Shown: one piece after another, positions 16,612 through 56,300 of the stretch
Layout of the letters: each line of letters begins with the position of its first letter
How positions within the stretch are numbered: the stretch's first letter is position 1
Source of the DNA: Tubiluchus corallicola
Taxonomy: Eukaryota > Priapulida > Priapulimorpha > Priapulimorphida > Tubiluchidae
DNA: 64,000 bases
Direction: 5' to 3'
Assembly: GCA_030141605.1 (NCBI GenBank)
Contig: JAQGDQ010000288.1
Span: forward strand, 70,621 to 134,620
Program-made: the position numbers and the translations under genes
The notes under the pieces: generated by a model
Database searches by the model: none
The model's input: only the letters and a program-made list of their open reading frames with translations
What the model was told of the DNA's origin: nothing

Positions 16612-16829
16612 ACCCAGGCGGGTAAGGTAATCCTTGTCTTATCTATAGTGGGCGTAAATTAATATTAAAACGATTCCTGCGGGTAATATGATACACTTCC
16701 GCAAATATGCCTCATGTTATACCCAGGCGGGTAAGGTAATCCTTGTCTTATCTATAGTGGGCGTAAATTAATATTAAAACGTTTCCTGCGGGTAATATGA
16801 TACACTTCCGCAAATATGCCTCATGTTAT
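16612..16829. repeat. Fresh tandem duplication, 2 x 109 bp
   Basis: Two head-to-tail copies (16612-16720, 16721-16829) beginning ACCCAGGCGGGTAAGG and ending CCTCATGTTAT. A single difference was seen by eye (ACGATTCCTG against ACGTTTCCTG). Non-coding, upstream of the fucosyltransferase gene. Confidence 0.9.
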
Positions 16830-17786
16830 ACTAGCCTAATAAGTCGAAAAAGTTCAACACATGTTGTGCAACCTTTCCCTGTTTGCGTTGTTGAATAATT
16901 ATTGATCACTTTAACTTTCGGCTACAACGCAAATAATTGTTTTCGTTAGCTCGCATGTTTATACATTTACTATAATGACTTGAACTATAAAAAAATCGTT
17001 ATTTACCGTTCTTTGTGTGCAAATGGAATTTCATGTTGTGTAAATATTGAATTGCTAATAAATAAACAAAGCTAGCCAATTATTTATCGTGCCGTGAAAC
17101 ATTGCTGTAATACAATACTGAGTTAAACAGATCTGAAGTAGCATATGTATTGCATAAGCAGTGTTATCTTTCAGGCTAGCTTGGGTACAGTGAAGCCAGG
17201 TATATTAATTCTAGAGTGACATTATTCATTTTGCATTACCTGTAGAGTTTGTTTGGCATGCTTGGCCGCTCTTGTATTGAGTGGTTAGATAGCCTTAGAA
17301 TCCTGTTTTAGTGATATAGTAGTTGTGAGGTCAGTATGCCACTGTTGTAGAACCAGTATGTCTTTTGTAATTTCTGAAGATTGGCTTGAGATTTGTTATA
17401 CAGATCCTCAAACGTTTGTAAGTTTATTTGTTTGCTTAATAGTTTCTGTTGGTGTTTATTTGATAATAATTCTTTTCATCTCCAGCCATTGCCTAATTAT
17501 TGATTTTTTTGCAACTGTTTAAAGTGCATGCGTATGCGCGTGTTTTTGTGTAGGCGTGCATGTGTGTGCATGTGCGTGCTGATTTGTGAATATGGTAGGA
17601 AGTTTGTTTGTTAGCAAATTTTTGCGTTTGTTTTGTAATGCCATATGTAATGGTTTAATTTTGAATCATCTTCTGCTTCAGTGTGCTTGTTGTTAATTTG
17701 CTAACGCTTGTTTCTCATTTACTCGCACTCGCACATTTACTGTTGCTTTATTTTTGTTGATATTCTTTTTTCTTGTTCTATTGCAG

Positions 17787-17970
17787 TTGCACCTCTTCTT
17801 TTTTACAATGAATGGAAAATGAAAATAAAATCTGTAAAACAAATAGCCAGTTTTCTACAAGCAGTTCAGAATATCTAAAGTGATGACCATTATGGTATAA
17901 CAAGGACAACCTGCATGAAGAGAAATTAGTGTTAGCTAAGTTATTTGTGTCATTGGGAGAAGTACTTGTA
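17787..17970 (+). promoter_or_regulatory. Probable 5' UTR part of the fucosyltransferase exon
   Basis: A strong splice acceptor (pyrimidine-rich tract then TTGCAG, AG at 17785-17786) precedes the coding exon. The coding exon therefore probably carries about 180 nt of 5' UTR, joined to an upstream non-coding exon that was not identified. An alternative is that GTG/TTG-rich sequence from 17929 is translated, which the lack of ATG there makes unlikely. Confidence 0.4.
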
Positions 17971-19146
17971 ATGTTTGAATCGCCGCAACGTGTGTGGACA
18001 ATATTGGCATTTTCATTGATATCGTTGCTATTTGCTTTGTCGTACGTTTCCTTTTGTTGTTATCATCCTTCAAGACTGTCTAATGCGGGCAGTACAATAT
18101 TCATAAAACGGCTGTTTGACAGCAACTTTAAAGAAAGCAGTAGTGGGCAACGAAAACTCATCTTATATTGGAATAAATTTTTTGATCGCAAACACTTTGG
18201 GTTTGGATTAGGTGCAGAGCCGTTTAGACAATGGTGTGCCAAAGGTATAGAACAGAAGCTAGTGGATGATTACACTAACTGTGAAACAACTGAAGACAAA
18301 GCTTTACTGAATCGATCTGATGCTGTTATTGTGCACTTCAGAAATGCCTTTGATGATGTTCCCCAAAACTCAGTACCTGGACAAAAATGGGTGTTTTATC
18401 TTAGGGAATCACCTGTTCACACTCCTGTTGAGTATTTAAGACGTTTAAGAGAAAGATTTCACTGGACCATGACTTACAGACTGGATTCAGATATAGTTGT
18501 CAGGGAAGGGGCGACAGGACAGAGACGTCGCGCATCTTTAAGTCAGATCAATACATTGAGAAGGCAAGGAGAGTTAGTTTTGTACGGTAAAAGTAAACTG
18601 GTACTTTGGTTTGTCAGCAACTGTAAAACGGCCAGTAAACGAGAAGATTACGTCAAAGAACTGCAAAAGTATATCGCCGTTGATATCTATGGTGAGTGTG
18701 GCACATTAAAGTGTGGGAGAATAAACGAAAGTAGTTGTTTACAGATGATGGAAAAGCACTACAAGTTTTATCTAGCTTTTGAAAACTCCATCTGTCGTGA
18801 TTATGTGACGGAGAAACTATACAGGACGCTACAGTACTACATTGTCCCGATTGTAATGGGTGGTTCAAACTACACTCAAATAGCCCCACCCCATTCTATC
18901 ATTGACGTCAATGACTATAAGTCAGCTAAAGATCTTGCTGATTACTTGCTGTATCTCGATAGTCACGATGAATTCTATCTTGAGTATTTTAAATGGAAAG
19001 AGAAATATTTTGTAAAGCGAGTTGTGAATCAACAGTTTTGCGAGTTATGCTACAAGCTAAACACGGAGCTGAACAATGGCTCTCATTTGCACAAAACGAC
19101 TAATTTATATGACTGGTGGGTTACTCAAGGTTCTTGCAAACGCTAG
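17971..19146 (+). CDS. Alpha-1,3-fucosyltransferase (glycosyltransferase family 10), single coding exon
   Basis: 391 residues from the first ATG (MFESPQRVW). It is a type II Golgi enzyme: short cytoplasmic tail, one membrane segment at about residues 9-31 (ILAFSLISLLFALSYVSF), a stem, then the catalytic domain. Diagnostic GT10 marks are LILYWNKFF near the start of the domain, HWTMTYRLDSDI, and the donor-binding block FYLAFENSICRDYVTEKLYR followed by YIVPIVMGGSNY, APPHSIIDV and FKWKEKY. It would transfer fucose from GDP-fucose in alpha-1,3 linkage to GlcNAc of glycoprotein or glycolipid glycans in the Golgi lumen. Length is normal for the family (about 350-450). Sequon N-Y-T lies in the donor block. 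The absence of introns in the coding part is common in this family. The acceptor and exact member cannot be assigned. No clear AATAAA close downstream was found. Confidence 0.92.
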   Translation: MFESPQRVWTILAFSLISLLFALSYVSFCCYHPSRLSNAGSTIFIKRLFDSNFKESSSGQRKLILYWNKFFDRKHFGFGLGAEPFRQWCAKGIEQKLVDDYTNCETTEDKALLNRSDAVIVHFRNAFDDVPQNSVPGQKWVFYLRESPVHTPVEYLRRLRERFHWTMTYRLDSDIVVREGATGQRRRASLSQINTLRRQGELVLYGKSKLVLWFVSNCKTASKREDYVKELQKYIAVDIYGECGTLKCGRINESSCLQMMEKHYKFYLAFENSICRDYVTEKLYRTLQYYIVPIVMGGSNYTQIAPPHSIIDVNDYKSAKDLADYLLYLDSHDEFYLEYFKWKEKYFVKRVVNQQFCELCYKLNTELNNGSHLHKTTNLYDWWVTQGSCKR

Positions 19147-34038: not shown

Positions 34039-37000
34039 CGCTACATTATTATGTTGTTATATAGTTATAAAAGCAGAAATTTGTCTACAGTAAGGTTTGA
34101 GTCCACTATTTAATTGCTCTGCTAGACATTGCCCATGTTGCTTGTAATTTACCATGTTTTGATGCACTAACTCGCAAAGACTTATCCTCCACAAGGTCAA
34201 GAAAACTGAATACTAGTAGTGCATAATATTGTTCACGGTGATTTACCAATATAAGTATTTGTTGTGTATTTCCTTCTGTGCTTAATGTCTAAATTTGATG
34301 CGGGCCTCTCACGTGGACGCCGCCAGGTGATCTAGATCCGCGAAGACTGTCGAACATTCACCCTCTACATGACACTGTATGATGGCGCTGTATACGCAGC
34401 AAGAACTCCACAAAGACCAAAAATTCATAAATGGAGGTTTAAACTGCGTCGTGCCTTATTTACTATAATAACAGCCACGCGACCTGCCTGAGCACAAGAA
34501 AAGCAGCACCTGGTGGACGAGACGAGCACAGGACAGAGACGCCTAAATTCGTGAACACTTCTTTTATACTTGTCGGCGCGCATGCGCAAGCGTGTCTGCA
34601 ACAATATCTATGTACAACGGAACAACACGTTAATCAGCGCTACTAACTAGTTTTTGTGTATTCTGTAATAAAAAATTACTTTTACTTACGCCTTATAATT
34701 ACGCTTATCGTTTCAGACTTACCGACATAAATGCTTACGTATTTTCGTACCTGGATGACGTGGAATTTCTTGATGTAAGAACCAACAGGCTTCTAAATGC
34801 ATCCTGGGATGACTTTATAGGATTGGAAAAACTAATATACCTAGATATTTCTTACAATTTCATCTGGGAGGTGACAGCAATGACATTCTCAAATACGCCG
34901 GTATTAGAAGATTTGCTAATGAGTGGAAACATCATCAGTTCTGTAAGTTTAGTTAGTATTATCTTTCTTAAAATAAAAATGACTGCCAGCTCCCACTTAA
35001 CAAAAGACAAGGCTTTTATTCAGATACTATCTGCAACGTTTCGACATGGTTACATGTCATGCTCACACATCAGTCACCTAATTAAAAATTCAGTATAAAA
35101 ATATATACTGTATTTTTATTTAGATGATAGTTGTGTGAGCATGACATGAATTATAATGAAGAAGTGTTGCAGATGGTGTGTGGACAAAAGTCCTGTCTTT
35201 TCTTAAGTGCCTGCTGGCTGTTATTTTTGTTTTAAAAACTCGTTTTTTACAAGGGATGCCTGTTTTCTGCTAGCCGCTTAGATTTATTTGAGGAAAAATC
35301 GTGGTACAAATGTGTCTCTGAATACAAATGTGCATTTTGTGTTATCATTATAATATGACAGCGGATATAACGAAAGCAAACAAGACTGTTATTAAAATGA
35401 AAAAGAAGCTTATGATTAACGGACTTTGTATTTCACATTCAAATATACAGTTTTCTACAGCAAAAAATAATAATTATAAATACCGATAATAGTAAAAAAT
35501 AATTTCGTAATGCTTTATCTTCAGCTAGCAAAGTTGCACCAAAACTAAGACAACTTCACTGCACAACAAAACTCTAATGCTTACAGTAGAACAACAATTT
35601 TGTTTAAAAGCACCAAATATTAGTGAAAAAAAACTAGTGATCGAAAAAGAGCACAAAATAAAAATAAGAATTGAGTGGGTAATAATAATACACCGATAAG
35701 CAATGTTAATAATTTGATTGATTTAGGCCATTATAAGGGTAATGATAATACGTACGTCGTTACATTCTATCTTTAGTCACATAAAAATTATATCATTTTG
35801 TTGCCAATTTAATGGCATATTCTAAAGACGCTTTCAGATTCCACGACCACGAAGCGTATATTGTATATTGTACTAACATCATTACTTTCCTATCATCGTC
35901 GTGATCAGCTACATCGCTATACACTTCGCATAAAGTCGCTTTGTGCACACTTGAAAATTAACAAACACGTATATATATATATAGTTTATTCAAGACAGGC
36001 CTGGACATAAAGACTTTTGTCCATTCTAGACGGACAAACTGATTCTAGCACAGTTGAATTCACTGTGTTCACTGTAAGCTCATTTGTATTCTGCTTCATC
36101 GACAACTACTTCATAGATATCGTAACCACTATGTCTTTCAAGCTCTTCTGGTGATGCGTACCCGAGATTTCTCTCGTAGCCATGTTCGTCCGGTGCGTCA
36201 TAGGGAAAAGACTTTCCGGTCTTATTCACCCCTTCATCAACGATTACTTCATATACACGTGGGCTAGAATCTTCACCATAGCCATAACCAACAGTTGTTC
36301 CATATACAACTGTTTCTGTAGTTCCATAAATCTCTGTAGTTGCTGTGAAAGTGTAGAAATCTGTTCCATATCCATAATCGACAGTAGTTGGATGTCCATA
36401 TTCCATTGCTGGATATTCAACAACAATTTCAGTTTCGTATTCGTGACCATCAAGTGATGTCGTGGTTTCATAGTTGCTTTCAGCATATCCATACTGACCT
36501 GAATCACTGCTTCTATCTTCATCTGCAACAAAATCGTACACGTCCTTTTCACGTAACACATTAATGTCTTTGTCTGCATCGTCAGTGCTTATAACGTCAG
36601 CCAGCTTTACAAGTGAATGCACCTGTTCTTCTGGGATTACACGTACTTCATAATCGGGCTTCTCAACACCTGTGCTCTTATAACCTATTCCAGGTTCTTT
36701 TGCAACAAACTTGTGTACTTCTTCTTCTGGAATTACTTTTATAGCCGTTTGGACACTTGTGCCAGAATCATAATCCTCTTTTACAAGGTCATACAATTGA
36801 TCTTCTGGGATTGTGTGTACTTTATAGCCCGGTTCTTCTACATCTTCGCTCTTGGATATACGCGAGCTGGCAACCTTTTGTTCTTCTACAACAAATTCAT
36901 GTATTTCTTCTTCTGGAATTACTTTAACAGCTGTTTGGACACTTGTGCCAGAGTCATCAGCCTCTTTTACAAGGTCATACAATTGATCTTCTTGGATCGT

Positions 37001-40000
37001 GTGTACTTTGTAGCCAGGTTCTTCTACATCTTCGCTCTTGGATATACGTGAGCTGGCAATTTTTTGTTCTTCTACAACAAAATCGTGTATTTCTCCTGCT
37101 GGAATTACTTTAACAGCTGTTTGGACACTTGTTCCAGAGTCATCAGCCTCTTTTACAAGGTCATACAATTGATCTTCTTGGATTGTGTGTACTTTATAGC
37201 CAGGTTCTTCTACAGCTTCGCTCTTGGATATACGTGGGCTGGCAACCTTTTGTTCTTCTACAACAAATTCATGTATTTCTTCTTCTGGAATTACTTTAAC
37301 AGCTGTTTGGACACTTGTGCCAGAGTCATCAGCCTCTTTTACAAGGTCATACAATTGATCTTCTTGGATCGTGTGTACTTTGTAGCCAGGTTCTTCTACA
37401 TCTTCGCTCTTGGATATACGTGAGCTGGCAATTTTTTGTTCTTCTACAACAAAATCATGTATTTCTCCTGCTGGAATTACTTTAACAGCTGTTTGGAAAC
37501 TTGTACCAGAGTCATCAGCCTCTTTTACAAGGTCATACAATTGATCTTCTTGGATTGTGTGTACTTTATAGCCAGGTTCTTCTACAGCTTCGCTCTTGGA
37601 TATACGTGGGCTGGCAATTTTTTGTTCTTCTACAACAAAGTCATGTATTTCTTCTGCTGGAATTACTTTAACAGCTGTTTGGACACTTGTGCCAGAGTCA
37701 TCAGCCTCTTTTACAAGGTCATACAATTGATCTTCTTGGATCGTGTGTACTTTATAGCCAGGTTCTTCTACATTTTCGCTCTTGGATATACGTGGGCTGG
37801 CAACTTTTTCTTCTTCTACAACAAAGTCATGTATTTCTTCTGCTGGAATTACTTTTATAGCTGTTTGGACACTTGTGCCAGAATTATCAGTCTCTTTTAC
37901 AAGGTCAAACAGTTGGTCTTCAGAAATTGCCTGTATCTTATATCCAGGTTCTTCTACATTTTTTCTGTTAGATTTACTAGTTGGAACTTGGCGTCCTTCC
38001 CCAACAACGTCATATATGTCTTCTTCTGTAATTACTTTTAGGTCTTTTTGGGAGCCAATGTTCACATTGTCAATTGAACTTACAAGATCATATACTTGGT
38101 CTTCTGGGATTATTCGTACCTGATAACTGGGTGTCTCTACATTTCTGTTTTTAGGTTTATTTAAATTAGTTTTAACTTTTTGTCCTTCTCCCACAAGTTC
38201 ATGTATGTCTGTTTCTGAGATTATCTTTACTACCTCACGACTGTCTTTATTTTTATTATTAGCTGATTCTACAAGATCATACAGTTGACCCTCTGGTACT
38301 ACACGTATATTGTAGTCAGGACTTTTTACATTTTCATACTCGCCAGTTGGTGTATGCAATTTTTGTTTCTGCTGTTCTGCAACAAATTCATGCACATTCT
38401 TTACTGGAACAATTCTGACTCTTTGGTTATCAACAGTCTTACTTCTAGCCTGTATAAGGTCATACACTTGCCCTTCTGAAATTGTATGTATTTGATAATC
38501 AGGAATCTTAGCATCTCCGTATTCATGCCCTGTTGAGTCTGTTTCATATCCACTACTAGCCTTATATTTTTGTTCTTGCTCTTCTGCAATAAATTTGTGA
38601 ACATCTTTTACTGGTACTACTCTAACTTTCTGTTGATCTCCAGTCTTAATTCCACTCTCTACAATGTCATACACGAGCCCCTCTGGGATTACACTTATTT
38701 TGTAATTAGGATTCTTGGCGTTTTCACTTTCGTACCTATCGTCAGCATATGATTGTTGTTTCTGCTGTTCTGCAACGAATGCGTGCACATATTTTTCTGG
38801 AATAACTTTGACGTTTTGTTCGTCTGTAATTTTGCTTCCAGCTTCTACAAAATCATAGACATGCTCCTGTGGGATAACATTTATGTCATACCCGGGATGT
38901 TTTGCATTTGCATTTTCATGCAGAGCTGAATCTGTTTCGTAGCCACTGGATTTTTGTTTTTGTTCTTCAACAACAATTTCGTGCACATATTTTTCTGGAA
39001 CAACTCTGACTTTGTGCTCATCAACACTTTTGCTTCCAGACTCTATAAAATCATATACATGCTCTTCTGGAATAGAACTTATTTCATACCCTGGACTTTT
39101 AGCATTTACATTTTTATACCCAGCTGAATCTGTTTGGTAGCCACTGAATTTTTGTTTTTGTTCTTCTACAACAATTTCGTGCACATATTTTTCTGGAACA
39201 ACTCTGACTTTGTGCTCATCAACACTTTTGCTTCCAGACTCTATAAAATCATATACATGCTCTTCTGGAATAGAACTTATTTCATACCCTGGACTTTTAG
39301 CATTTACATTTTTATACCCAGCTGAATCTGTTTCGTAACCACTGAATTTTTGTTTTTGTTCTTCTGCAACAATTTCGTGCACATATTTTTCGGGTAGAAC
39401 TTTGACTTTTTGTTCACCTGCAATTTTGCCTCCAGTCTCTACAAAGTCATACACAGGGCCTTCTGAAATTGAACTTATCTGGTGTCCATCTGCATTTTTG
39501 TTTCTGTTTTTTTCTATGCTTACAAGTTCATACACATCCTTTTCTGGAATGATGAGATCATGCTTGTTATTTCTTACAGTTTTACTTCCATATCTGCCAT
39601 GGCGTGGTTTTGTAGCTGCACTCTTTTTAAGTTTACGTAAAATTCTGTCCACAACAAAATCACCTGTTTTGCTTTTTTGCTTTGAACCTTTAGCCTTTCT
39701 TTTGTTCTGCTTCTTTATTCTATTTCTAGCTTGTTTTGCACGGCTGCTTCTGTTTTTCCTGATGTCAGTATATCTACTGCCGAAGTTCTTGCTTGGATGT
39801 TTGCTCAAATTGCTTTTAAGTACGTTTTCTGTTCTTCTCCGCTTTTTGTTGTTCTGTTGCTTTTTGGTCTGTTCTGTTGAAACTACTTTAACTATTTTAA
39901 AATCGTAGTCATGCGGTTCTTCACTCTTGGTACTTGCAAAACTGCCATATGTGATACCTTGCTTTTTTGCGGTAACATCACTTTTGCTGCCTTTGTTTTG

Positions 40001-41308
40001 TTTTTTACTTTTTGGTGTGGCGTTTTTAGTTCGCTTTCTTCTTTTTGGCCTCGAATTTTTTTGCTTGCGATTTTTTCTATCATTGTTGCTCTTATTAAAG
40101 CTACGAAGAGTTGCTTTTTGGACGAGTCCTCGGTAACTAATATTATTTCTTGTAATCTTATGTTTGAGTAAACCGGGATCGTTTTCTTCAGCTGCTTCGT
40201 GTTTTTCTGCAGCATATACACTATGAGTGCGTCTGTATCGTTGCCGTTTGCGTTTTCCAGCATTGAAATTGCTTTGCACGTATCTACCACTGCGCTTTCT
40301 GCCCACGGGTATTACATTGTCCTGTCTTTCATTGTTCTGTTTTTCATTATTCGCCGCCTCAGATCCAATGCTGGAGATACCGCGTTTATCATTGTTCTGT
40401 TGAAACTCAAGTTTTCTGTTTCTGTACTCATTGGGTTGTCCAGCAGTTCTTGCGTTCTTTGGTTTTCCAGATTCAACTACTGCCACCTGTATAAAACAAT
40501 TGCATAGTTCTAAATTGTACCTCAACTTTAAGGAAACTTTTCATTAATGATAGAATGACATCACAGTTATTAACATTTGAATTCAAACTACCGAAAAAGG
40601 GAAGAAAAAAATGTCGCAACATTTAAAAGGCAAGGTACCTTTAAATTGTGTAACGTGACCAACAGACCACGTACACACAATTATATGAGAAAGATATAGT
40701 GCTTACAACAGTTAGCTTAACAGTGTTAATTGTTAATTAATTGAAGAAGGCGCTAAAAATTTGCCCCGCAGATTTGAATCCAGAACATGCTTTTCACGAC
40801 ACATACTTTACAATTTGAGCTACTGATGGGCAAGGCTGGTCTGGGATCTAAACAGATGTGAGTTCCCTTATTAGCCTCTGCACCTTTCTATAGGGTATTC
40901 AGAACAAACAAAAAAGACACCACGCTAACCGCTGCTGCAAAATTGTAAGTCAACAAGGTTTTGTACCCAGCACTTGCACTTTCATGGCACATGCTTTGCC
41001 GTTTTGGCTACTGACTCAAGATGGCAATTTGAATACACTCAAGACTGGGATTTTGATTTATAAGCCCCTGCACCTTTCTGTAGGGTATCCGGAACACACG
41101 TTAAGACAAACACTTACAGGCTTACAATAATTACTAATGATTAATTAATTAAACAAGGAGGCAGCGAGCAGCAACAACGACAGTGACAGTAACAGTGTCA
41201 ACAATAACAACAACACACACAACAACAACGATGGTAATGGCAACAATAACAACAACAACAGCAACAAAGCAATAAAAGTAACACTGATAACAGTGATGAT
41301 GATGATGG

Positions 41309-41356
<48 letters not shown>

Positions 41357-44300
41357 CAATGATGATGATGATGATATGATGATGATGATGATGATGATAA
41401 CGATGATAACGACGATGATGATGATCACAACAAAGGAGCGAGCAAGAAACAGACAAACAACAACAACAACAACGACAAATAATAAACAACAGACAAACCA
41501 ACAAGCAAGCACACATGCAAACAAACAAACAAACAAACAAACAAAGAAACAAAAAACCATTTACAAACAAATGCAACAATATGATCTTCTATAACTTTTT
41601 CGAATATTGTTACATGAAAGATATTTTCTTAGTATCAAACCTTCTCTGCCTGAAATTTTCCTGGTTGAAATCTTTTACAGTACTAAACTTTCCTAGCACC
41701 AACCTTTCCAACCTGTTCCGTACCATTTTTGCCTTACACCAGATTTACTTCTACCAAAAATGCCTGACAAAACTGTATTTACCAGTACCCAATTTTTTCT
41801 GTACGCAATTTTCCCCAGTACTAAAATTTTCCTGCACCAAAAATTGCTAGTAGCAAATTTACGTGTAACAAACTTATTAGCACCAAACTTACTGCGCACC
41901 GAAGTAACCACCGCTTCTGTTAGCTACCGAAGACCTACAATTATGGTTCATCAGTATCAGAAACTAAAGTTGAACATACTTGTCACTTTTGAGGGTAGAT
42001 GGTTTGAGCCAGATTTTGGTTAATGCAATAGCCGACTGGTCACAAATATGTGTCTCCATGCCCAAGTTAAGCCATGTCTAAGCTGGTTAGTAAGGGGATG
42101 AATGACTGCCTTCAGTGTACTCGCTCTGGGCAGTTTTATTCGCTCCACTGATTGAGGCTCTTCACCTCTTAGAAGGAAGACAAATATAACGTTGATTGAG
42201 ATACATGGGGATATCCTCGACAATAAGCCTGACTCGATGCGACATGAGTTACTGTAGGCCCTGTTGTCGGTTGCTAGTTTCCACCTTGAAACAATCACAG
42301 AAACAATCAATGTGCCGACTTACATATATATATATATATAAAACGTCTGGCATTTGGTAACCAATCTTTAATTATAATTCCATGGTTAAGTGTACTCTTA
42401 CTTTCCCAATAAATTTCCCAGGATGCCAATTTAACGTTTATAAACCTATGATTAACCCTTCACTGGCTGCACGTTTTTTTAAATGTATATAGTATTAGTA
42501 CACTTATTAGTACATAGTATTAATCTTATCAGTACTAATTCTTACTTGTACATAGTAAATAATACCAAACGAACTGGGATATGCAATGTATCTATTACTA
42601 GCAGTACAGCTATAATTACAATTGGTACTATCAAGTAGACTGTGGGCTTACCATACTCCTAAACTACAGGTGCGCAAGCAAATAATAGAAAATATGAACA
42701 TATCATATGCGTATATGATACAGAAACAAAATGATCTCTACAAAAAATCTAAAGAACCCATATTTCACATAACATTCAATACAATTTCTATGACATTAGC
42801 AAAATTGTGGACCAACAGTTTTTATAACCACAGAAAAAACTATATACTGTAAATAGCTATGATTATTCAAACATGGATCATTTCTCAAAATCTGCAAATA
42901 ATAGGTGCTCGTCTAAATTCAAACTGTCATAAAAGAACCTCAGCCACCTGTTGTCAAACCATCGTAACATACTAGGCTAAAATGAATTTAACGTATTAGC
43001 TATTAATAATTATTACTGATTTTACCTGCGGTCTCAAGCCCTCATTATTAAACTGAAGGCCGCTCTCTTACCCAGTAAAATAGTGGGAAACCTACTTTTC
43101 AAATTCTATTATAGGGTGCAGCAATGTGATAAGGAAGTAGATTTGTAATTAGTTAATTAGGTGGCAAATTAAATTTGAAGCAACTTACAAGACAACAGTA
43201 CGATATTAGTCCTATGAACACTTGTCTTCTCATTATTTTTTCAAAATACGCAGCTTTTCATGATATTTTTGCACAGTAAATCATTTTCATCATCAACAGT
43301 ACTAGATTTTCAAACAAATGAGTCAAAACCGTCGGCTGCACAACCATGTCAACTATCAAGGCTTTTGACCTTAAGTTGTCACTCGTGGCCATAATGAGTT
43401 TTTTACTAGCATTATCTTGGCTAATTGGTCTATCGGCCCCATGGCCTACTAAACTAGCTTTGGTTTTAGTCAGCTCTCATAGGTAAAAAAAATTCACGTT
43501 TTGCTGCTTTAAAGTTAAGTGATTTTGCTTTGTTTTGTGACTTTATACTAAATGAACTCCTTTTTTTTCAAAAATGTCGACCATGTATATTTATTGAACC
43601 ACCAATAAATACATTACATTACAAACAAATAAACAAGACAGATTAAATCAAAAGCGAAAGAAACGTTTACTAGAGACAAAATCCGCTTACAAAGGAATAT
43701 TGTGACTCGAGCGTACAAAAGAAATAACAATTAACTCACACAAGTACATAATAATTATCACAACGGTTCACGAGAAATAGTATTAATAACTCTTTACACA
43801 ACTGTATCTAGATTTTATTTAGCAAATAACTGACTCCTTTTCTGAAAAGTTGATTCCAGAGAACTTCAATGATCTTGCATAATTCGATATCTTGGCTTCT
43901 TATTATAAAGACAAATTTATTATCGCCATCTCTCTCAACGTTAGATCATTTTATGACTTCGAATAATTTAGAAAATTATTTTACCAACTACAACGCTCGT
44001 CATAATATCGACAACTTGTCTGACCATTCCCCGTTATTTATTAACGTCAGTTTTAAGCTTTTTACAAATGATGTTAATGTCAGATTGTAGAAACCCCGTG
44101 TTGCTTGGCATAAAGTAACATTTATGTAACTATCGTAGTGTACTCGATGCCTACTTAAATTGCATATCTCAGGGTGATTATAATCTTATAGTCAACTGTA
44201 CTCCCCTCCCACTCGGTGTGAATTTCATTGACAAATATTGTGAGCAGATCATAGGAGCTTGCTTAAAGGCAGGCAAACATCATAGTCCTCAAACTCAGCC

Positions 44301-47300
44301 TGTCCAACCTGAACGCGGCAGTCGTAATGCCGCTGGGTGTAATGATCTCATAGAACCCTTACGTCAACAGGCTTTGTTTTTTCACTCCATTTGGTGCTTA
44401 AACAATAAGCCAAGACATGGCGCTCAAGACATGGTTGACAACCTCAAAACACGAGTCAAATATCACTTACAAATACGTCATGTATCTCGTAATCAAGATG
44501 CTATACGGAATCAAAAAATGACTGAAGCTATGGCTTCAAATGATAGTAGGCAATTTTGGAGGAGGGCGAAGAAATTGCATCATGCAACCAAAACGGTAGC
44601 AAACAGTATCGTTGGCATCTTTAATCCTGCTCATATAGCGAACGATTTTACTAACGAATACTCAAATGTCATCAATCACACAACTGTATGAACGTTTGTC
44701 CCTAAATAGTACCACTGATTCGTTTTTTTTGTAATCAAATCATGAAGTAAATTTGCAATTTCGAAATTGAAGCGGGGCAAATCTGACGGCTCGCTTGGCC
44801 TTGACAGTGATAATATTGTAAATGGCACAGAAACGTTAACTAGACACCTGACACACTTATTTAATTCCATGCTTATACATAGCTATTCCAAAACACTATA
44901 GTACCACACGTGAAGAACCCCAGCGATAGCCTTAATACTAAGTCAAGCTATAGAGGAATAAGACTATCCTCCTAAATTATAAAAATTTTAGACTGGATTA
45001 TCCTCAACAGATGTCACGAAAGCCTTGCAAACTGCGACCTCCAATTTGCATGCAAGAAAAAACTCATTTGATGAATGGATGGATGGATGGATGGATGAAT
45101 GGATGGGTGGAGGGACGGATAGATAAATGTTCGGACGGGCGGGCGGACAGACAGATAGACAGACAGACAGACAGTCATACAGACAGACAAATAGATAAAC
45201 AAATAGAGTAAAACATAGTCACAAAAACATAAACAAACTCGATCGAAACAGCATGTATAAGATAAAACTACAACTACATACTACAAGTTGTGCTACGCAA
45301 AATGAAAGCATGTGAAATCCCGCTTAACCATTAAATTTTAATGATTACTATTAGTAGTATAGCCCTATGTATTATTCATAGGTATGTCGTGGCGCTTTCT
45401 CTGGACTGTCAAGGCTAAGGAAGCTACGACTGAATGACAATAGATTTCAGTATCTGTTAGAGAACTCATTCGAAGGAGCAAGCATTCCACGAGAACTGTT
45501 ATTAAATGGTAAGACTTTTACATAAAAACCGTTGTGGGGTTTGAGTTTGCACATGCATGTCTAAGGAATGTTTTTTACTTTTTAGAAGGTACGCAATAGG
45601 GTGCTCCTACACTAGCCATTTTAGTCAAACTGACTACTGCCTTCTATAGATGCCTCAGTGAATTAAGTGCTGCAAAGAATCATCGCAGACGTAACGATGA
45701 TCCATACAGTTTCGTACTTAAAGGGTTAAATGGTTAATAACAAAGAGATTATTACAACGGATTATTATTATAAGGAGCAAAATTTTTATTATAAAATAGG
45801 AAATTACCAATATGTTACTAAGATCAACGGATACTAAATAAAAAAAGCTAAAAGCCTTAAAAACGGTACACTTTCACAAACATTTAGGTATCTAGTTTCA
45901 GTCAAACATAAAATGGGATCATGACGTACACTATATAATTGAAAAGGCTCAAGCAACAAGATTCTTAATCGATCTTATTAAAAATATACCCCGTGTTAAA
46001 CCACGAGTTGTTCTTGAACATCTTTATAAATCAATGATCAGGCCCATTCTAGAATGCTAGCCCAGTATGATGTAATATTCTTCCTTTTTGCCAAATATGT
46101 TAGAGAAAACTCGATAACGCGCAGTTTATATGTCTAGCAAAACAATGAAGGGTCCATAAACATCTAAATTGTTATAACGACTGTGTGGATTCGAATATCT
46201 ATAAAAGACGGTTATTTCATAAGTTGGTATTGTTTTATGAAATTGTAAATAGTATGCCACCCCCTTATTTACATGATTTGTTGCAAATGGTTAACAGAGA
46301 CTTATCCACATATAATCTTCGAAATCGTAACACCAACTTTGCATTGTTTCATGTACATGGTGAACATTTTTATAAATCTTTTCCTCTGCCACCGTGGTTG
46401 ATTGGAACGCTCTTTCCGTTTTCATACCACAAGTTCCCACTATTGGTCGTTTTGTTAGTTCTTTGAAAAAACACTTCACTTTTATTAATAGACCCAAATA
46501 TTAGTCATACAATTCACCCCCTGACTGTATTCACCACGCACGACTAAGGGCGGGTTTCTCTCAGTTAAACAGCATTTAAACAGCCACGGTTGTAGAGATT
46601 CAGTGCGTAATGTTGTTCTGAAAAATTGTATCTGTGATTTTCAAATTGAAAATATTAAGCATTTTTTTGTTCGATTGCCAGAGGAACTCGAAGAACGACT
46701 AACAAACTTATACCAAACAAACACATTACCCTTTTTGATACAATAACCTTGACCCACAATTAAAAATTTTAGTTTTTCTTTCTGGTAATTTTTTACTAAG
46801 CAGAACGTCATCGTATTTGACCAGCTACAGCAATATATTAGTTCATCTAACCGTTTTAATTATTTTAATACTAGTCACGAAATATTAAGTAATACATAAT
46901 CACTTCTTCAGTTTCTTAAGAATGTCTATTGCAGGAGCTCCCTAAGCTTTAGTGAACAATTCAGTCGATAGTTATCTTATTACAAATACAAGTACTAAGT
47001 CGACTAAAATAGTGCGACACAGAAAAAAGTAATTCCGTTGCTTTGTTGTGACAGGAACCTCTGGTAATCCCTATATAGTTAACTTACTGATGTTTTATGT
47101 TCTCTCTGCCAGGAAATCCTATATCATGTGATTGCAACCATGAGTATTTTTCTGAGACTTCTGTAGATGGCACCTGCTATGATCCAGAGTACCTCAGTGG
47201 CACGGAGATCTCCACAATGCCGCCTACTAGCTTCTCCTGCTACATCGTCTCCTGTGGTGATGGCGTTGAATGCGACATCAGGGACAAAGACGTCTGCCAC

Positions 47301-50300
47301 CCTGATACTATCCTTCCCACTTATCCGCAAACGACGCCCACACCACCTCCAGCCCATGTTTGTCCTCTGGAAGATAGTCTAGCTCCTTGCAGCTGCGTAC
47401 AGGGTCCAATTGGCCTGAATATTACATGCGTTGACCGCCAGTTAGGTGATGTCATAGCAATGTTGAATAGTGTCAAAGGTTTGAAGATTGACCGGCTGGA
47501 GGTCAAAGACACAAATCTGATGCCTTTACCACTTGAACTGTTTCACGGGCACAACATCACAGAGTTGCATTTTGTCGATACCAAACTCAGCTCCTTGGAA
47601 TGGAACGTATTCGAAGGCATTGAACAAACCGTCAAACTTCTAAATTTATCATCAAACAAGATGCTGAATTTTCCAGTGGCAGCTGTGGATCGTCTGCAGG
47701 TTCTGGAGGTTATGGACTTTTCCAGAAATGGTCTAACGGCTATCAACGAAGAAACTTTTCTTGGTTTGTCTATTATCAACAACATCAAGAGAATGCTAAT
47801 CAGTGAAAACCGCATTGTGCAGGTCATGGGAGGTTTCATCAACTTTGTGTTATGCCATGATCTAGATTTGTCAGGTGAGTAGTAAGAGTAGGTAGCATTA
47901 CTTTTTCTTCATTATAATTATTGTTATTCGTTTGTCTTAATAATTTCTTATTTTGGCAAAGCACGGGTTACAGGAATCTGCTATACATTTAAGTAGTTTT
48001 GCAGATAAAACGCAGTGCAACGTTTATTTCAAATTAACTCCTATCTCAAATTTAATTTATGAATAAGTTTGCCTATATTTACTGCCATTTCCTTTCAGGT
48101 AACGTAATCGAGGAAATTGAACCAAATGCATTCGATGGACTGCTGGCTCTGAACAATCTTTGGCTGTATAACAATAAAATCAAATCAATACACGTCAATG
48201 CTTTTCGATCTCTAATCACCTTGGAAATGATTGATCTTAGTGAGAATGACCTTACAGGTAATAGGTCCACTGTAAGTAAACAATATGAGTGTATCTGTCC
48301 CTTGCCTGTTTTGAGAGTAGAGGAAAATCCAGTCAAAACCAGAAACCTCGTCAGATAGTTCCCCTGATGTGAGATTTCTTAACAAACCTGCTGGTGTTTC
48401 TTTTTCAGTATTTTCGTTTTTATGACCTTATACGGGCAAATATATTTATAGTAATTTAAATCAGCGGAAAACGTTCAGCGATTTAAATTTTTCAACCAGA
48501 AGTTATCAAAGGAACAACTGAATTCATTAAATCAGTGGTAGTTAACGCTTGTGAACGCTGTTGACGCTGACCAGACCATCACTCGGTCTAGGTGGTTTGA
48601 GCACCTTTCCCCTGCTACTGCTACTCGAAGAGTTTGAAGGTTGATTCCGTTTTGATAATTTGTTTATCTTATTAACCGTTTGGATTTTTGTTGACATGAA
48701 AATTTAACTACTAAGTCAAAAGCTAGTTCAAGCTCGCTAACCAACAAGAAATATAGTTTGATTTATATATTTTTTCGTTACTCCGTGACCACTTCGGGCA
48801 GAGAAGAAAAACTACTGACTCTAACTACTACAATAATGGTGTGTAGCTTTTCATTAACAACGATGCTTTGCTTCCATTATAGAATTACTGAAAAGTCGAA
48901 TGCAACAGTAAGTTGTAATAAACACAGTTACCAATCCCAGGATCTAAAGTGCCAAGATCTACATAGTTGAACATATTTTGGACTGTAGAAATTTTTCTTG
49001 CCCACAAGAAACAAAGAAACAATTTTTCATTATTTGGCTTCCTTAAAGGTAGTGAAAATAACTTAATGCTTAGCTAAATGTTGACACTTAATATTTTGTA
49101 ACTGATGGTTACATTTATTACAAGTACGTATTTCTAATATAATATAATAATTTTTCTTCATTACCACTATATATGTTTTAGACGATGGTCTGCCATATGG
49201 TGTACTAAATGGATTAATAAATTTGTATGCGATTCACTTGGACAGCAACAAGTTGACTGACATTAACGATCATATCTTTCAGGATTGTAGGTAAGATTAA
49301 TTGGAACACAAAATCTATCTTTGACCGTATAATGCCCTAAGAACACAAAAATTAAACATTCGAGACTTCTCTTCGGGGCATGCTTTACCTCCATCAGTTC
49401 TGATTTTGTTGTAAAATCATCGCTTGCATTAGGTTTGTTGCAGTTTGGTTGTTCACTAACTTTGATAGGTTCCTGCTCTCTTGCAGGCTTTGCAAGTCTA
49501 AACGTTGTTTTTGTTACTAGGCTTGTTATTAAAATCAGAGCGCTGTACATAAAAGTCACTAGATGTTTAAATTACTAATTGAAGAAAATAAATCTAGCAA
49601 GTAAAACGAGTTTGTGCATCACTTTTTGTTGTTAATGATTTTTGTGAATGGAATTTAACACAGGCGATTGTACACGTTAACCGTCTCTCATAACCTCTTA
49701 AACAACGTTATCTTCGATGACTTCGTGGGCCTTGTCAACCTTAGTTATTTAGATCTGGGCTATAACCTGCTACGAGAAATACCTACTGGAGCATTTCGGG
49801 AACTAATAGAACTGGACCATCTCTTCATTAATGACAATGGGTAAGACTTATTATTAAACTCGAGACTATAATGTTTTTTTTTGTATTTTTTAAGTTGACA
49901 ATTGGCCACTTGGTTAACTAATTGGTTGGTTGGCTGATTAATTGGTTGGTTGAGTGGATGGGTGAACTGGTGGCTGATTGGTTAGTTGGTCGGTCGGTTG
50001 GTTAATTGATTGGTTGGTTGGTTAGCTGATTGGTTGGCTGATTGAGTTGGTGGGTGAGCTGGTGGCTGGTTGGTTGGTCGGTTGGTTAGTTGGTTGGTTG
50101 GTTGGTAGGTTGGTTTGATTGACTGGCTAGTAGTTTGGTGAATTTATTGTTTCACTGAGTGGCTGAAAACGTATCAGATGGTAATTAGTTTTCTGATAAA
50201 ATGTAATTTTAGCGGAACAATACCTTTGATTTTGTAGATTGGAAAATCTTTGCTGGGGAGCGTTTGAGAATTTGATTGATCTTGAGCAGCTGTACCTAGC

Positions 50301-53300
50301 CAATAACAATCTCAACTATTTCATGTTGAGCATTTTCAACAACAGCATTATCGCGAGGCAGTGTGACATCAATGGTAAGATTGATTACTTCTGAAATACA
50401 CGATGAAGGCTAGAAAAACAAAACTCGCAGTGATAGCTGAGAATATGAGTTGACTTTATGTTGATATATGTAAGCAAATCTTGTAAACGCGTCGAAGTTT
50501 TTGTAATAGAAGGCACATTAGGAGAATTATGATTATAGTTTTGTGAGAGTTTGCAGACTGTAGTGGAGCAAACTGGATGCCCTATTTCAGAACGCCGATC
50601 AAATGTAATCTTTATACACAAAAATGCTTCTTCCGATTTTTACCTGACAATCGTATCAAAAAAAGAAAGATATATTTTTTGCTTGGCGAATGTCTAGTTA
50701 AGATTTGGCTAACTAACACTTACGTGTGAGCTAGAAACTTCTTTTGGAAAAGAGCATCTATTTTGAAGCAAATTCCGTTCACAAACAATTGACAACAATC
50801 CATTTTTCGATGAGTGTGTGAAATTAACAACGTAGCGTGCGAACTCGCAATTTCTTTCGATTTATTTTTTGTTGTTTTCATTTGCAAGCAGCTCAAACGA
50901 CATGGTTATTTCAATGATAATTCACACGTCTTAAGTACTCTTGACCGAGCATTTTTATTAACCCGTCCGTTCATATAGTATTAAAAGTTCAAAACTAGGA
51001 AATTTATAAAAATGACTGCCAGCACCTACTTAAAAAAAGACATGGCTCTTATTCAGGCACAACATCTCCAACGTTTCGACACAGTTAAGGTCATGTTCAC
51101 GCAACAATCACCTATTTTTAATAGCGTATTTTTGTTTAGATATTTGGTATGTTACACTGTATTTTTTTTATTTATTTTTGATATGACCTTAACTGTGTCG
51201 AAACGTTGCAGATGTTGTATTTGAATAAAAGCCATGCATTTGTTTAAGTGGGCGCTGGCTATGAGGAAGCGCCATTGCACAATATTTTGTAAGATTACAG
51301 AGTGAATGAACCACTAAATAAGTAAACGAACTGATAAACTAACAAACGGGTAAAATTAGTAAATAAATAAGTTAATTTATTAACTCGGTTTATTCTAATA
51401 CTCAGGTAACCCAATTATATGCGACTGCAACATAAAGTGGGTGGCAGAAAATGACGGATTCTTCCTGGACGGGACGTGTGCCCATCCACCACAATTTGCC
51501 ACACTGCATGTTGAATCAATCCCAGCCGAACTGTTCCGATGTGGCGAATGTGACATCGAAGAGTTTCTTCATCGAAGACGCAAGCGGCAAGTTGAAGATT
51601 ATGGGACGTGCGACTTGCGAGAATACGACATATGCCAATTTGACAACATACCGACTGCACCGCCTCCTGTTGTATATGTTTGTCCCCCTCAGGAAGAGAT
51701 CTACCCCCCTTGTATCTGCAGCGCAACGGGATTGCCTTATGTTGGTCTTACAGTCACTTGCATCAATGATGACATAAGTAACATTATGGACACCTTAAGA
51801 GAATTCGACGCAGCAGCCTTTGATATGCTGCATATTAACAATACAGCTTTTGTTGATAGTATTATTCCAAATAATATCTTTGAAGGGATGGAAATTCAGG
51901 AACTTCGAATTACACATAGCAACGTAGAGACCGTTGAAGACCATGCATTTTCTACCTTGGAGGAACATTTAATGAAGATTTCGCTTGCTTTTAACAAGTT
52001 AGAGAAATTTCCAGACCGTGCATTAGAAGTACTAAAAAGTCTAGAGGAACTCGACGTGTCTAATAATCTTATTGCAGATATTGATGATGATGATTTTCTC
52101 AGTTTAAGATTTCCCAGGCTGTCTGTCTTACGCATCAACAACAATGAAATTGCTGAAATTTACCCCCAGGCATTTGACAATCTGGAAAGCATAGAGCATC
52201 TACATCTTCACTTTAATAAATTAACTACCATTGCATCCAATACTTTTAGAAAACTATATAAGCTAAGGAATCTGTATCTGTACAATAATGAAATAAGTTC
52301 GGTTAGCACTAATGCATTTAGCACACTTTCAAGTTTACATTACTTATCAATGAGTAACAACAAGCTCACCGATACAGGTTTAAATGTTGGTTCACTAAAT
52401 GGACTTGACCTGTTAGAATTGCTGTTTTTGGATGGGAACTTATTGACTGATATCAATGCCCACATCTATGCCGATTTACTGGCTCTTGACCAACTTTACG
52501 TGCGTAACAATGCACTTGTCAACGTGTCCTGGGACGACTTTGAAGGACTCGAGGATTTGAAACTGCTGGATATCTCTGGTAACAAAATATGGGAGATTAC
52601 ACCTGGAACGTTTAAGGAGATGCCAATACTGCAGGAGTTGAAGATCAATGATAATATCATAGGTATGGTATTAGTCGTTAATCACTTGTGCTGTTATCCC
52701 ACCTATGAAGGATTTTAAACAGGTTCCAACAATTTTTGAACTTATTTCAGTTGCACGATAACATAACTATCCTGTTCGTCTATGGGTTTTAACTTAACCC
52801 TACCTCGCTGATCATTGGGCCAAGTTTAGACAAATATAAAAGCAGTTTGGCGATCCTGTAATTTCAGTGCCAATGATTTGCACATTTTCAGTTCATTAAC
52901 ATTCTTCTTCTAATCATTTAATGGTTTAAACACGCTTGTATGCTTTGAAGAATCATCTAGGTTAGCTATTGTCTTTATATGACGAAGTGTAATTTCAAAT
53001 ATAACCAGTTTCCATGCTCTAAATCTATCTGATCAGTGAATACTGAAAAACGATAACAAATGTTTCAGTAGTGTGCATTGATTTTCCAAAATTTATTGTT
53101 TTCTTTACAGGTCAAGTTTGCCGAAAAGCGTTTGAAGGATCTACGTCTTTATGGAACTTGGAATTACGAAATAACTTTCTGAATTATTTACTTGAGAACA
53201 CGTTCGATGCAGCAAGTTCAGGCAGACCTAATCGAATCGATGTCAGAGGTAACCGTTCAATAAAAACTGAAACAAACCACACGTAAGAAATTGCATACTC

Positions 53301-56300
53301 TTTTTAAGAACAAACTATAATACCTCATAAAAAGTTCGTAAACCCAAGAACTGTAAGCAGATGTACGTTTATGTACTACAAAGTAAAAGAAGTATGTACT
53401 TCCAACAGCCTATCCTATAAGATATTTATTGCTTTTGAATCTTAATCAACATTGGAATTCCCATAAAACATTTTTTTCTTTATAGGCAATCCAATTTACT
53501 GCGACTGCAATTCAAGATGGCTGCGAGAGCAGAATGCAAGAGGAACATGTGAAGCGCCACCCCAGCACGCTTACAAAGAAATTGCTGATATTTCCTCAAT
53601 TTTGTATATCTGCTCTTGCGACGATGATTCATGTGACATCCGTGACAAAGATATCTGCGACGCCAACACCGTCGTTCCATCATACGAACCACCAACATCC
53701 CCTAGTCCAGATCCACATGTGTGTCCAGAAGCAGAAGACATTACACCATGTAAATGCGAAGTGGCCAGCAGTGGAATAGAGGTCCTTTGTGGCTACATTG
53801 ACACTCAGCAGCTAGACGCCGTTGTAGCTGCTGTGCAGAACCAAACTGTTTCTAGACTTACAGTAATAGACAGTGTTATACCAACACTGAAAAGTGGCAC
53901 CTTTGACGGGGCAACCTTTCGACGTATCACCATCCAGAGAAGTCAACTGTCCACCATAGAACGTGAAGCATTCAAGGATCAACCCCGACTTCGTGAAATA
54001 AATCTGCAGAACAACAAAATCCGCGAATTTCCCAAAGACTGTCTTGTTCATCTGGGCAGTATTGATGAGCTAGATTTATCTTATAATGGGATAACTTCGA
54101 TTGAACAAGATGACTTTAGTGAGTTGCCAGAGAAAAATTTATTGGTTGTGCTATCATTAAATCACAACAATATTGCCTTAATCGAATCAGAGGCCTTTGT
54201 TGACAAGTTCAAGGATCTCAGTGCACTTTATCTGCACAATAATTTCATAGAGGAAATACAAAACTTCACATTTCAAGGTCTAGACAGCCTAAGAATGCTC
54301 TGGTTGTCAAATAATAGGATCTCTCTAGTTCAAAACTACAGTTTTACTGGCTCCGTGAGCCTGGAAGAGCTCTTCTTGGATAACAACAGGCTCACCAACG
54401 ACGGCTTAGAGCAGCAATCCCTAGACCAGTTAAATGAATTGAGATTTTTAAATCTTGATGATAACCAGTTAACAGATATTCCGGATTATATTTTTGAAGA
54501 CAATGAAAAACTAAGCACTCTCTACATCAGGTAGGCCAATGTATGATAATTGAAATGGTAATGAATCAATATATCTAACTGTGGTTTCAATCTTTAGAGT
54601 CACTAATAATTCAAATATTTAAATTTACTGATGGACGATTTCGAAATTTTCTTTGTTTAATCATGAGTAATTCGATTATAATGTTGTTCTTGTAAATTGA
54701 TATCACGATTAATCTTTTGTGACGATTTTTAGTGTTATAGCTATATTTTTCAATGATTGCAGTGATAGCCTATAACTGCTTAACAGCTTTCGTCACTCTT
54801 TGCCATTTTTGCGCTCGCAAACTATTTTTATAGACACGCACCCATTTTCATTAACTACTCTATGACTACCGTATCATCGAGTCAAAGAATTTGAAGCCCC
54901 CATTTCGCAACACTGTGCTTCGTAATTGCGCGAATTGTGTAAGGTAAGAAAAACGAAGGGAAAACACAGTGCAAAGATTCCGTTTACTTCTGCTAAAAAT
55001 GCTTCTTAATCAGTGTGAAACATCATTTACCTACGATTTATCTCGATTTATTGAATTACTCTTCAATGTCGAGTCGATTATACCGATTTATACATGGCTG
55101 TAATCGCGACTAATTCGATTAGTCGCCTATCACTATTTAAACGATTAAAATGGGCAAAACACCAATAAGTGATTATTACGAAGCATCATTTCTTTTTCTT
55201 AATTTCCCAAAGTAAATTAATGTTCATAGCTTTTTTTAAAAGTGCAATTTGATACATAACTTTGAGTTTTCCATAAATGTTGACAAACTTTTGTGGCGAT
55301 GAAATGTAACTTTTTGCGTAATGTAAAAAAAGGATTCATGAAAGGCCTGAAAAACGTGAGTTATTTGAGAGAAAGCACTCATTTACATTGAAGGACATTT
55401 TGCTTATTTCAGGCGTAACGCAATTGACAATATTCGATTTGAGGACTTTTTTGGGCTGCCAGGCTTGCTTGAACTAGACCTCTCCTACAACCACATTCCA
55501 ATGATCAAGAGAGATACATTTTCCGCAATGCCATTTCTGGAAACTCTAACTATTACTCATAATGAGTTGAATGCCACATGCTTACAAGCGTTTGGATTTT
55601 CTTCTTCTATTAGACGCATCTATCTTCAGTACAATGCTCTTCAGTACCTGTTGGAAAACGTGTTCGGTTTTGGGACAATGATTAGACCGGAAATTATTTT
55701 TCTCGACGGTTGGTAACGTTGCCATGTTTTTGTAATAGGATTACCAGCTCAAGTTTACAATTCCCCACACAACAAGCATTCGTGAAGTGGATTAGGTTTA
55801 AGGTTTATGGTATTTAAATTATATGGCAAACTGTAAACTCCTTCCAGAATTATCTAGTTTTATGCTAGTGTAACAGAACTAAAATGCTCTTACAGAATCA
55901 CAAATAAAAATTATTGTTTCATTAGAAAGTGTTAAAAGTATATAAGCCCTCGGTTCACAATGTCACACATTAACAAAGGCGTATTCTTAGACAAATCCAC
56001 CTTGATAACTAATTTAAGTGAAAAATGAGGCATTAAAAACTTCGGGAAACCAGAACTTGAACCCAGAACCTTGCGATTTTAGGTCGCATTCTCTAATTGC
56101 TGGTCTGAGATTTCATCATAGCAAATACAGTCAATTAAAGTGACACATACACACGTCCGCACACGCATACATGAACACTTGTCCATACGTACATTATTAT
56201 GTATAATATTTAGGCTGCTAAACCTAAATACTTGTAACAAGTTCTAACGACAATTTTCCTTTAGTCTTATAACTATATATTACCAATAACGCAACTTATC

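Follow-up and report, generated by a model that had tools for sequence, protein, structure and literature searches.

A minus-strand gene nested in an intron of Tubiluchus corallicola and its paralogue, predicted to encode large secreted repeat proteins with segregated charge

Many glues and silks have a composition dominated by glycine and proline, and classic acidic matrix proteins carry long runs of aspartate and glutamate. In the sections of the published accounts used here and below, Dbfp5 from the byssus of Dreissena bugensis is a secreted protein with repeats, a basic N-terminal block and an acidic C-terminal one, both predicted to be disordered, and 3,4-dihydroxyphenylalanine (DOPA) is reported for some byssal proteins of this species (Dbfp2) (PMC6474901). 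The slime proteins ES_P1 and ES_P2 of velvet worms are very large and largely disordered, with repeats of about 30 and about 20 residues, respectively (PMC9218773). The molluscan mantle secretes repetitive low-complexity proteins, often lineage-restricted, whose modular repeats may expand by slippage (PMC4897951). Here, we analyse a stretch of 64,000 nucleotides from the priapulid Tubiluchus corallicola (assembly GCA_030141605.1, contig JAQGDQ010000288.1, positions 70,621 to 134,620 of the forward strand), hereafter called the window. Within an intron of a leucine-rich repeat (LRR) gene, its minus strand carries what looks, from its sequence and that of a paralogue, like a real gene for a large, repeat-built and probably secreted protein (table 1).

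The minus-strand frame contains no stop from 40540 down to the TGA at 36082-36080. Counted from the acceptor AG at 40488-40487, exon 2 has 1,468 codons. When its bases were shuffled 200 times and read in three frames, no open run exceeded 146 codons, and a chance open reading frame (ORF) was rejected on this basis. A previous sequence-only reading had described this exon with its 33 half-units, basic head and Tyr/Gly-rich tail, and all of them are in the sequence. It had also described a protein free of cysteine, with methionine only near the C-terminus. Exon 2 (11.3% E, 10.8% V, 10.1% K and 5.3% Y) does lack cysteine, and tryptophan as well, and its single methionine is residue 1361; but the whole protein gains Cys 13 and Cys 14 from exon 1, both within the predicted signal peptide. 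Plus-strand ORFs inside exon 2 (one of 205 amino acids, and others) are presumably the antisense shadow of the nested gene. The upstream host exon ends with GNIISS at 34942, followed by the donor GTAAGT. Together with the exon starting at 45382 it completes the LRR pattern of the other modules, which sets the limits of the host intron and places the minus-strand gene entirely within it, as had been proposed. Such nesting is not rare, since intronic genes are put at about 6% of Drosophila genes in the section of the literature used here (PMC3786989).

The gene has a paralogue. We searched the genome (343,548,820 bases in 2,344 contigs) with a procedure that scores only the best candidates. With the window gene as query there were six matches, namely the window itself and five on another contig (C2316; 38-58% identity), and with the paralogue as query the same two places were the only ones at expectation values (E) up to 1. 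This points to a family of two members in this genome; there may be more distant ones, since only the best candidates were scored. A query with the tail retrieved both genes and six weak matches (E 0.38-0.84). We read the loci of three of these six in search of a third member, and the longest ORF in each is that of an R2-like retrotransposon. By eye, these three loci (L011, L012 and L015) carry ORFs of R2-like non-long terminal repeat (non-LTR) elements with reverse transcriptase, and with a zinc finger in L011 and L015. The main exon of the paralogue encodes 1,271 residues, with a net charge of +53 in the head, -70 in the repeats (21 half-units, 797 residues) and -19 in the tail. It has one cysteine at the start of the head, and an AATAAA/ATTAAA-type polyadenylation-like signal lies 64 bases beyond its stop. 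An ORF on the opposite strand (L009:9098-9406, plus strand) precedes the paralogue; it has no Pfam match at E 0.1, and we take one stretch of it to resemble the N-termini of BRSK/SAD-type kinases.

The similarity between the main exons of the two genes starts at VAVV, directly past the acceptor in both, which supports the acceptor previously placed at 40486. As for the first exon, a loose scan of the minus strand upstream, for phase-0 ATG...GT exons that extend the hydrophobic start of exon 2, gave eight candidates in 23.5 kb, the nearest at 43233-43189. There was no excess upstream, as the plus strand of these 23.5 kb gave five candidates, and the two strands of positions 1-36000 gave five and 12. 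In a strict signal-peptide scan, whose rules were set after this candidate was known, 43233-43189 was the sole match in the 4.9 kb of host intron. One more match occurred on the minus strand of 45382-64000, none on the plus strand of 40487-64000, none on either strand of 1-36000, and 18 per 2,000 kb of simulated DNA.

The paralogue provides stronger evidence for exon 1 than these scans. Compared with the 14.9 kb that precede its acceptor, MRRQVFIGLISYCCL finds its best match in MGSHVIISLMLCCCL, with a score of 33 (runner-up 23). This sequence starts with ATG, is directly followed by GTAAGC, forms an equally long phase-0 exon of 15 codons, and shares seven of its 15 residues with exon 1. None of 1,000 simulations gave such a score for equal-length ATG exons followed by GT (mean 1.6, largest 32), and such exons in the rest of the window scored at most 21. 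A scan for charged N-ends upstream of the paralogue missed this exon and listed four others; the exon was found by similarity instead. The joined N-termini, MRRQVFIGLISYCCL-VAVVESGKPK and MGSHVIISLMLCCCL-VAVVKCGVPN, are both hydrophobic, and by general sequence rules both read as signal peptides split by a phase-0 intron. Because the layout of the paralogue matches, we regard the gene, its acceptor and exon 1 as supported, and with it the anticipated upstream start exon that adds a predicted signal peptide. If this exon were misassigned, the protein could be an intracellular or nuclear scaffold, with nucleic acid or tubulin held by the cationic head and with repeats that act as multivalent docking motifs. 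The head, with a net charge of +64 and 27 dibasic pairs in 311 residues, would suit such a role, and the joining of the exons is a prediction from sequence. However, an upstream ATG is required because exon 2 has no methionine before residue 1361, and the best-matching upstream exon joins in phase at a conserved acceptor and yields a hydrophobic N-terminus in both genes. We consider a scaffold quite unlikely.

The main exon encodes three blocks of contrasting charge. The head has an isoelectric point (pI) of 11.2 and is made of 16.7% K, 11.9% R, 10.3% N, 9.0% S and 5.5% G. The repeats (exon-2 residues 312-1325) have a net charge of -93 and a pI of 4.69, and the tail one of -24 and a pI of 4.05, with 14% Y and 11% G. 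Head and tail do not appear to be decayed repeats, since their best motif scores do not exceed those of shuffles (p 0.43 and 0.38). Dibasic pairs, counted with overlaps, follow the same layout: 27 in the head, one in the repeats and none in the tail. This bears on the idea of a precursor that releases many bioactive peptides (hormones, toxins or antimicrobials) on cleavage, for which predicted secretion, many near-identical units and three furin-like R-x-[KR]-R sites in the head (exon-2 residues 83, 146 and 149) could be invoked. Yet the repeats hold a single dibasic pair in their 1,014 residues and so lack the customary cleavage sites, and the paralogue has six in its 797 repeat residues and 30 in the head; cleavage would remove the head at most. 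A neuropeptide-type precursor, which requires dibasic sites between the repeats, was rejected on the same count, and we judge the precursor reading as a whole highly improbable. The acidity of the repeats and tail would also fit a mineral-associated matrix protein, with repeats that bind calcium in shell, tube or cuticle; in the sections of PMC4897951 used here, shell matrices often contain repetitive low-complexity secreted proteins, and a link is drawn between acidic repeats and the binding of calcium. By eye, however, there are no long Asp/Glu runs. The families PF00379 (arthropod cuticle) and PF14830 (molluscan haemocyanin) are unmatched in the genome, but this says little, as they are equally unmatched in 14 control genomes. 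We hold a mineral-binding role to be distinctly unlikely.

Half-units were picked by a pattern fixing residue classes at positions -1 to +3. Sorted by spacing, they form 16 A and 17 B halves, with steps of 23-27 residues from A to B and of 28-45 from B to A. Proline stands at -5 in 22 of 33 half-units here and 18 of 21 in the paralogue, and I/V/L at -6 in 33/33 and 20/21, positions that the search pattern does not fully fix. D/E occurs at +1 in 29/33 and 19/21. The sequence-only reading had described an alternation of tyrosine and histidine halves. In the window gene this is real, as the key position has 17 Y, 15 H and one F, with 14 Y, one F and one H in the A halves and 14 H and three Y in the B halves. 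It does not extend to the paralogue (18 Y, two H and one F of 21). Because the latter is mostly Y, the alternation is not the defining trait of the family, and a histidine-based pH switch was rejected as a family mechanism. The repeats of the paralogue also contain methionine, so the scarcity of this residue does not hold for both genes; the alternation and the near-absence of methionine are peculiar to the window copy. Conserved between the two genes are the signal-peptide exon, the arrangement of charge, the half-unit motif and the tail, foremost the stretch PDEHGYE[RK]NLGY[AS]SPEELE common to both.

At the DNA level, Tandem Repeats Finder reports arrays of 186 bp (7.2 copies, 91%) and 198 bp (3.7 copies, 87%) in the repeats. 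Units 10-14 are 94-98% identical, and the closest are the alternate pairs 10-12, 11-13 and 12-14 (97-98%), which suggests that a block of two units was duplicated. Units 1-3 make up a second array (82-92% identity), and units 1-6 are just 51-58% alike in DNA to units 9-15. The tandem units have 66 and 62 amino acids here and 76 in the paralogue. Tandem expansion thus seems to have occurred separately in each gene, which we count in favour of the interpretation given below.

Several measures indicate that the frame is coding and constrained. The period-3 signal reaches 8.5 for the head, 14.5 for the tail and 31.6 for the early repeats, whereas six stretches presumed to be non-coding give 0.8-2.1. 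Among repeat copies, the ratio of non-synonymous to synonymous substitution rates (dN/dS) is 0.44 for the 18 Y/F-bearing cores and 0.41 for the 15 H-bearing ones; it is 0.47 and 0.27, respectively, among the early copies of these two types, and 0.26 among five late units. The ratio of uncorrected proportions (pN/pS) is 0.56 (Y/F cores), 0.52 (H cores) and 0.27 (five late units) when the true frame is read, whereas shifting the frame to either side gives 0.63-2.67. The check for purifying selection, previously suggested with orthologues, was run with the paralogue in their place. Head and tail show purifying selection in this comparison: in the head, residues are identical at 129 of 301 aligned codons, with dN 0.48 and a dS of 2.03 that is near saturation (pS 0.70), i.e. 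dN/dS of about 0.24; in the tail, 62 of 115 are identical (dN 0.36, dS 0.91, dN/dS about 0.40). For the repeats, where the alignment is uncertain, the values are 284 of 733, dN 0.54 and dS 1.14.

The repeats had been expected to form a regular solenoid or beta-arcade, and the structure predictions do not support it, within the limits of shallow alignments made of repeats of one gene. For 3.5 units (13 rows), AlphaFold2 gives a mean predicted local distance difference test score (pLDDT) of 30.3 and a predicted template modelling score (pTM) of 0.15, with helices of 12-14 residues at five of seven motifs. One unit (15 rows) reaches a pLDDT of 59.1 and shows a single long helix, which covers the B motif. 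Neither model has a strand of three or more residues. The hydrophobic moment of the motif points the same way, being 0.39 at helical spacing (0.26 in shuffles, standard deviation 0.02) and 0.13 at strand spacing (0.25 in shuffles), so that the motif is not amphipathic as a strand. From these models we take the repeats to be a chain that is disordered and bears short stickers prone to form helices, a fold being possible too. Such a fold might be an alpha-solenoid or toroid, in which half-units of about 31 residues stack as helix-bearing modules. Besides the amphipathic moment and the predicted helices, a phmmer match (E 1.9e-8) would favour it, between residues 998-1268 (numbered 18 above the exon-2 numbering) and the designed protein dTor_9x31L (4yxz), whose name implies nine 31-residue repeats. 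But a profile of 15 units matches no chain in the PDB at E up to 5, nor does the paralogue at E up to 1; the match therefore looks like a product of composition and repetition. The spacing of half-units is also variable, and the prediction for 3.5 units offers no confident helical solenoid (pLDDT 30, from the shallow alignment). We do not place the protein in the dTor group, and hold a folded helical repeat to be very unlikely.

Other searches gave no trusted relative, in agreement with the previous reading, which knew of no named family with this repeat. The window protein has six Pfam and three NCBIfam matches, all under the cut-off, the best Pfam match being PF23470 (E 6.5e-5, 23.1 bits for a cut-off of 26). 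The paralogue has five Pfam matches, also under the cut-off, single repeat units reach a Pfam E of 0.0078 at best, and the head alone and the tail alone match nothing in Pfam or NCBIfam. We regard all these matches, like that to dTor, as too weak for homology. Pattern matches in viral contigs (76) and prokaryote genomes (122) confirmed no relative, and twelve peptide strings from both genes did not occur in the literature searched. Set against Pfam, NCBIfam, the PDB and viral and prokaryote sequences, rather than animal protein collections, the pair would form a new family, and the protein is probably lineage-restricted.

The explanation that we favour, with a confidence about evenly balanced between acceptance and doubt, is that of a secreted, largely disordered structural protein with charge blocks, part of an extracellular material. 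Exon 1 and the opening codons of exon 2 would encode the signal peptide, and its removal would leave a mature protein of about 165 kDa. From the N-terminus, the chain would begin with a head of strong positive charge, continue through about 1,000 residues of two-part repeats that are anionic, and end in a likewise anionic tail rich in Tyr, Gly and Thr. Most of it would be disordered, with one short sticky module per half-unit: an extended [VI]-x-[VTI]-[IV], in most cases a Pro-Glu turn, and xx[VIL][YH][DE][LF]V as a short amphipathic helix. Weak contacts between modules, attraction between the cationic head and the anionic body, and possibly tyrosine cross-links could then condense the protein after secretion into an adhesive, a fibre, or the matrix of a cuticle, shell or tube. 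Secretion leans on the conserved exon 1, and is supported by the anatomy of the protein and by paralogy, as the paralogue shares the charge layout and the length, phase and donor of exon 1. The material role is drawn from the architecture, by analogy with byssus and mantle proteins, and a fibrous or structural function is our best guess.

Several observations weigh against this interpretation. Scored by the codon preferences of seven plus-strand ORFs (LRR and fucosyltransferase), the true frame is not favoured (-0.013 bits per codon, versus +0.056 in another frame), and GC content at third codon positions is 0.27 in the nested gene versus 0.39-0.48 in the training ORFs; we give these two points little weight. 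The near-saturation of dS in the head adds to these. When the repeats of the paralogue are compared with one another, little or no constraint is seen (pS 0.057 and pN 0.060 for five units; 0.040 and 0.019 for the four closest). Because the alignments were shallow, low AlphaFold2 confidence is weak proof of disorder. With 5.6% Gly and 4.1% Pro overall, the protein differs from the many glues and silks dominated by these residues, tyrosine by itself does not demonstrate cross-linking, and a secreted protein of this kind may have a signalling or immune role instead.

We also consider, as a rather doubtful extension, that the half-unit [VI]-x-[VTI]-[IV]-P-E-x-x-[VIL]-[YH]-[DE]-[LF]-V is an undescribed self-association module and the basis of a new class of disulfide-free, charge-block secreted animal material. 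This claim jointly covers 33 and 21 copies in two diverging genes, properties adjusted through the length of the linkers and the residues chosen, and an alternation of Tyr and His halves by which assembly of the window protein could become sensitive to pH or metals. A two-member gene family with a hidden first exon of 15 codons is supported from raw sequence and the paralogue. In our judgement, such a gene is easily missed or annotated as partial, because its 4.4-kb exon lacks an early methionine. An extracellular material, if confirmed, would add a large, disulfide-free and charge-segregated protein, whose simple repeat code lends itself to production and testing. The surprise is moderate, because secreted repeat proteins, probably lineage-restricted like this one, are already a known kind.

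Table 1. Coordinates of the nested gene and of the host intron, as positions in the window.
Feature	Position	Strand	Description
Exon 1	43189..43233	-	MRRQVFIGLISYCCL, phase 0, donor GTAAGT; first part of the predicted signal peptide
Intron 1	40487..43188	-	2,702 bp, phase 0, GT...AG
Exon 2	36080..40486	-	1,468 codons and TGA; remainder of the protein
Predicted signal-peptide end and basic head	39554..40486	-	311 aa
Repeat region	36512..39553	-	1,014 aa, 33 half-units
Tyr/Gly/Thr-rich acidic tail	36083..36511	-	143 aa
AATAAA polyadenylation-like signal	35985..35990	-	starts 90 bases beyond the stop, at 35990
Host LRR-gene intron	34943..45381	+	contains both exons of the nested gene
Next host LRR exon	45382..45508	+	begins after ag with VCRGAFSGLSRL; GT donor at 45509

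Intron 1 contains a TGA/TCA microsatellite and two copies of a repeat element (40873-40898 and 41063-41088, minus strand), spaced by about 190 bp; a 26-base pattern derived from it matches both copies and nothing else (0 expected), and the element is possibly like a short interspersed nuclear element. A mobile element around the gene was rejected, as the sole inverted repeat of at least 20 bases in 34900-45400 (seed 12) lies outside the gene. This repeat (35053-35148), beyond the 3' end of the nested gene, is a 45-nt hairpin with 87% complementarity and a 6-nt loop. The plus-strand LRR exons run from position 25.7 kb or so to near the end of the window. The LRR gene (24000-64000, plus strand) consists of repeated cysteine-capped LRR cassettes, with modules near 47.1, 51.4, 53.5, 56.6, 60.1 and 62.6 kb, and apparently continues past the window's end. 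ORF fragments on the plus strand in the host intron (44119-44691) and in the next one (46149-46466) resemble, by eye, remains of non-LTR retrotransposons. Further upstream, there are a 109-bp unit in two tandem copies (16612-16831, 99% identical) and an open frame of glycosyltransferase family 10 (fucosyltransferase; 17887-19146, plus strand, Pfam E 2.2e-61).

Compared with known systems, the window protein resembles several and coincides with none. The PEVK region of titin is likewise built of charged repeats, each about 28-31 residues long and with much E, V, K and P, but these four residues make up about 70% of PEVK and 39.3% of the repeat region here, and the window protein is predicted to be secreted; we do not class it as a PEVK protein. 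The velvet worm slime proteins are alike in their size, disorder and repeat length, and in the IP/IIP motifs of ES_P1 (PMC9218773). They differ, in the sections of that account used here, by cysteines that lie mostly close to the ends of the chain, by N-termini rich in Gly and Ser, and by repeats that contain basic pairs, whereas the predicted mature protein has no cysteine, a Lys/Arg/Asn-rich head and one basic pair in its repeats. The terminal cysteines of disulfide complexes and the Gly/Ser-rich N-terminus being absent, we do not place it among them. Its likeness to Dbfp5 lies in (predicted) secretion, repeats and opposite charge blocks with predicted disorder; the newly described Dreissena byssal proteins, likened by description, are of 4.3-21.6 kDa and have other repeat motifs in the part of the source used (PMC6474901). 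The mantle proteins are a loose class, usually rich in Gly and Ala, and the half-unit motif was not met in the sections of PMC4897951 used here. They share with the window protein secretion, modular repeats, a tendency to disorder and, often, restriction to a lineage. A signal peptide with tandem repeats is one mark of this class, and the window protein shows both, the signal peptide being judged from sequence.

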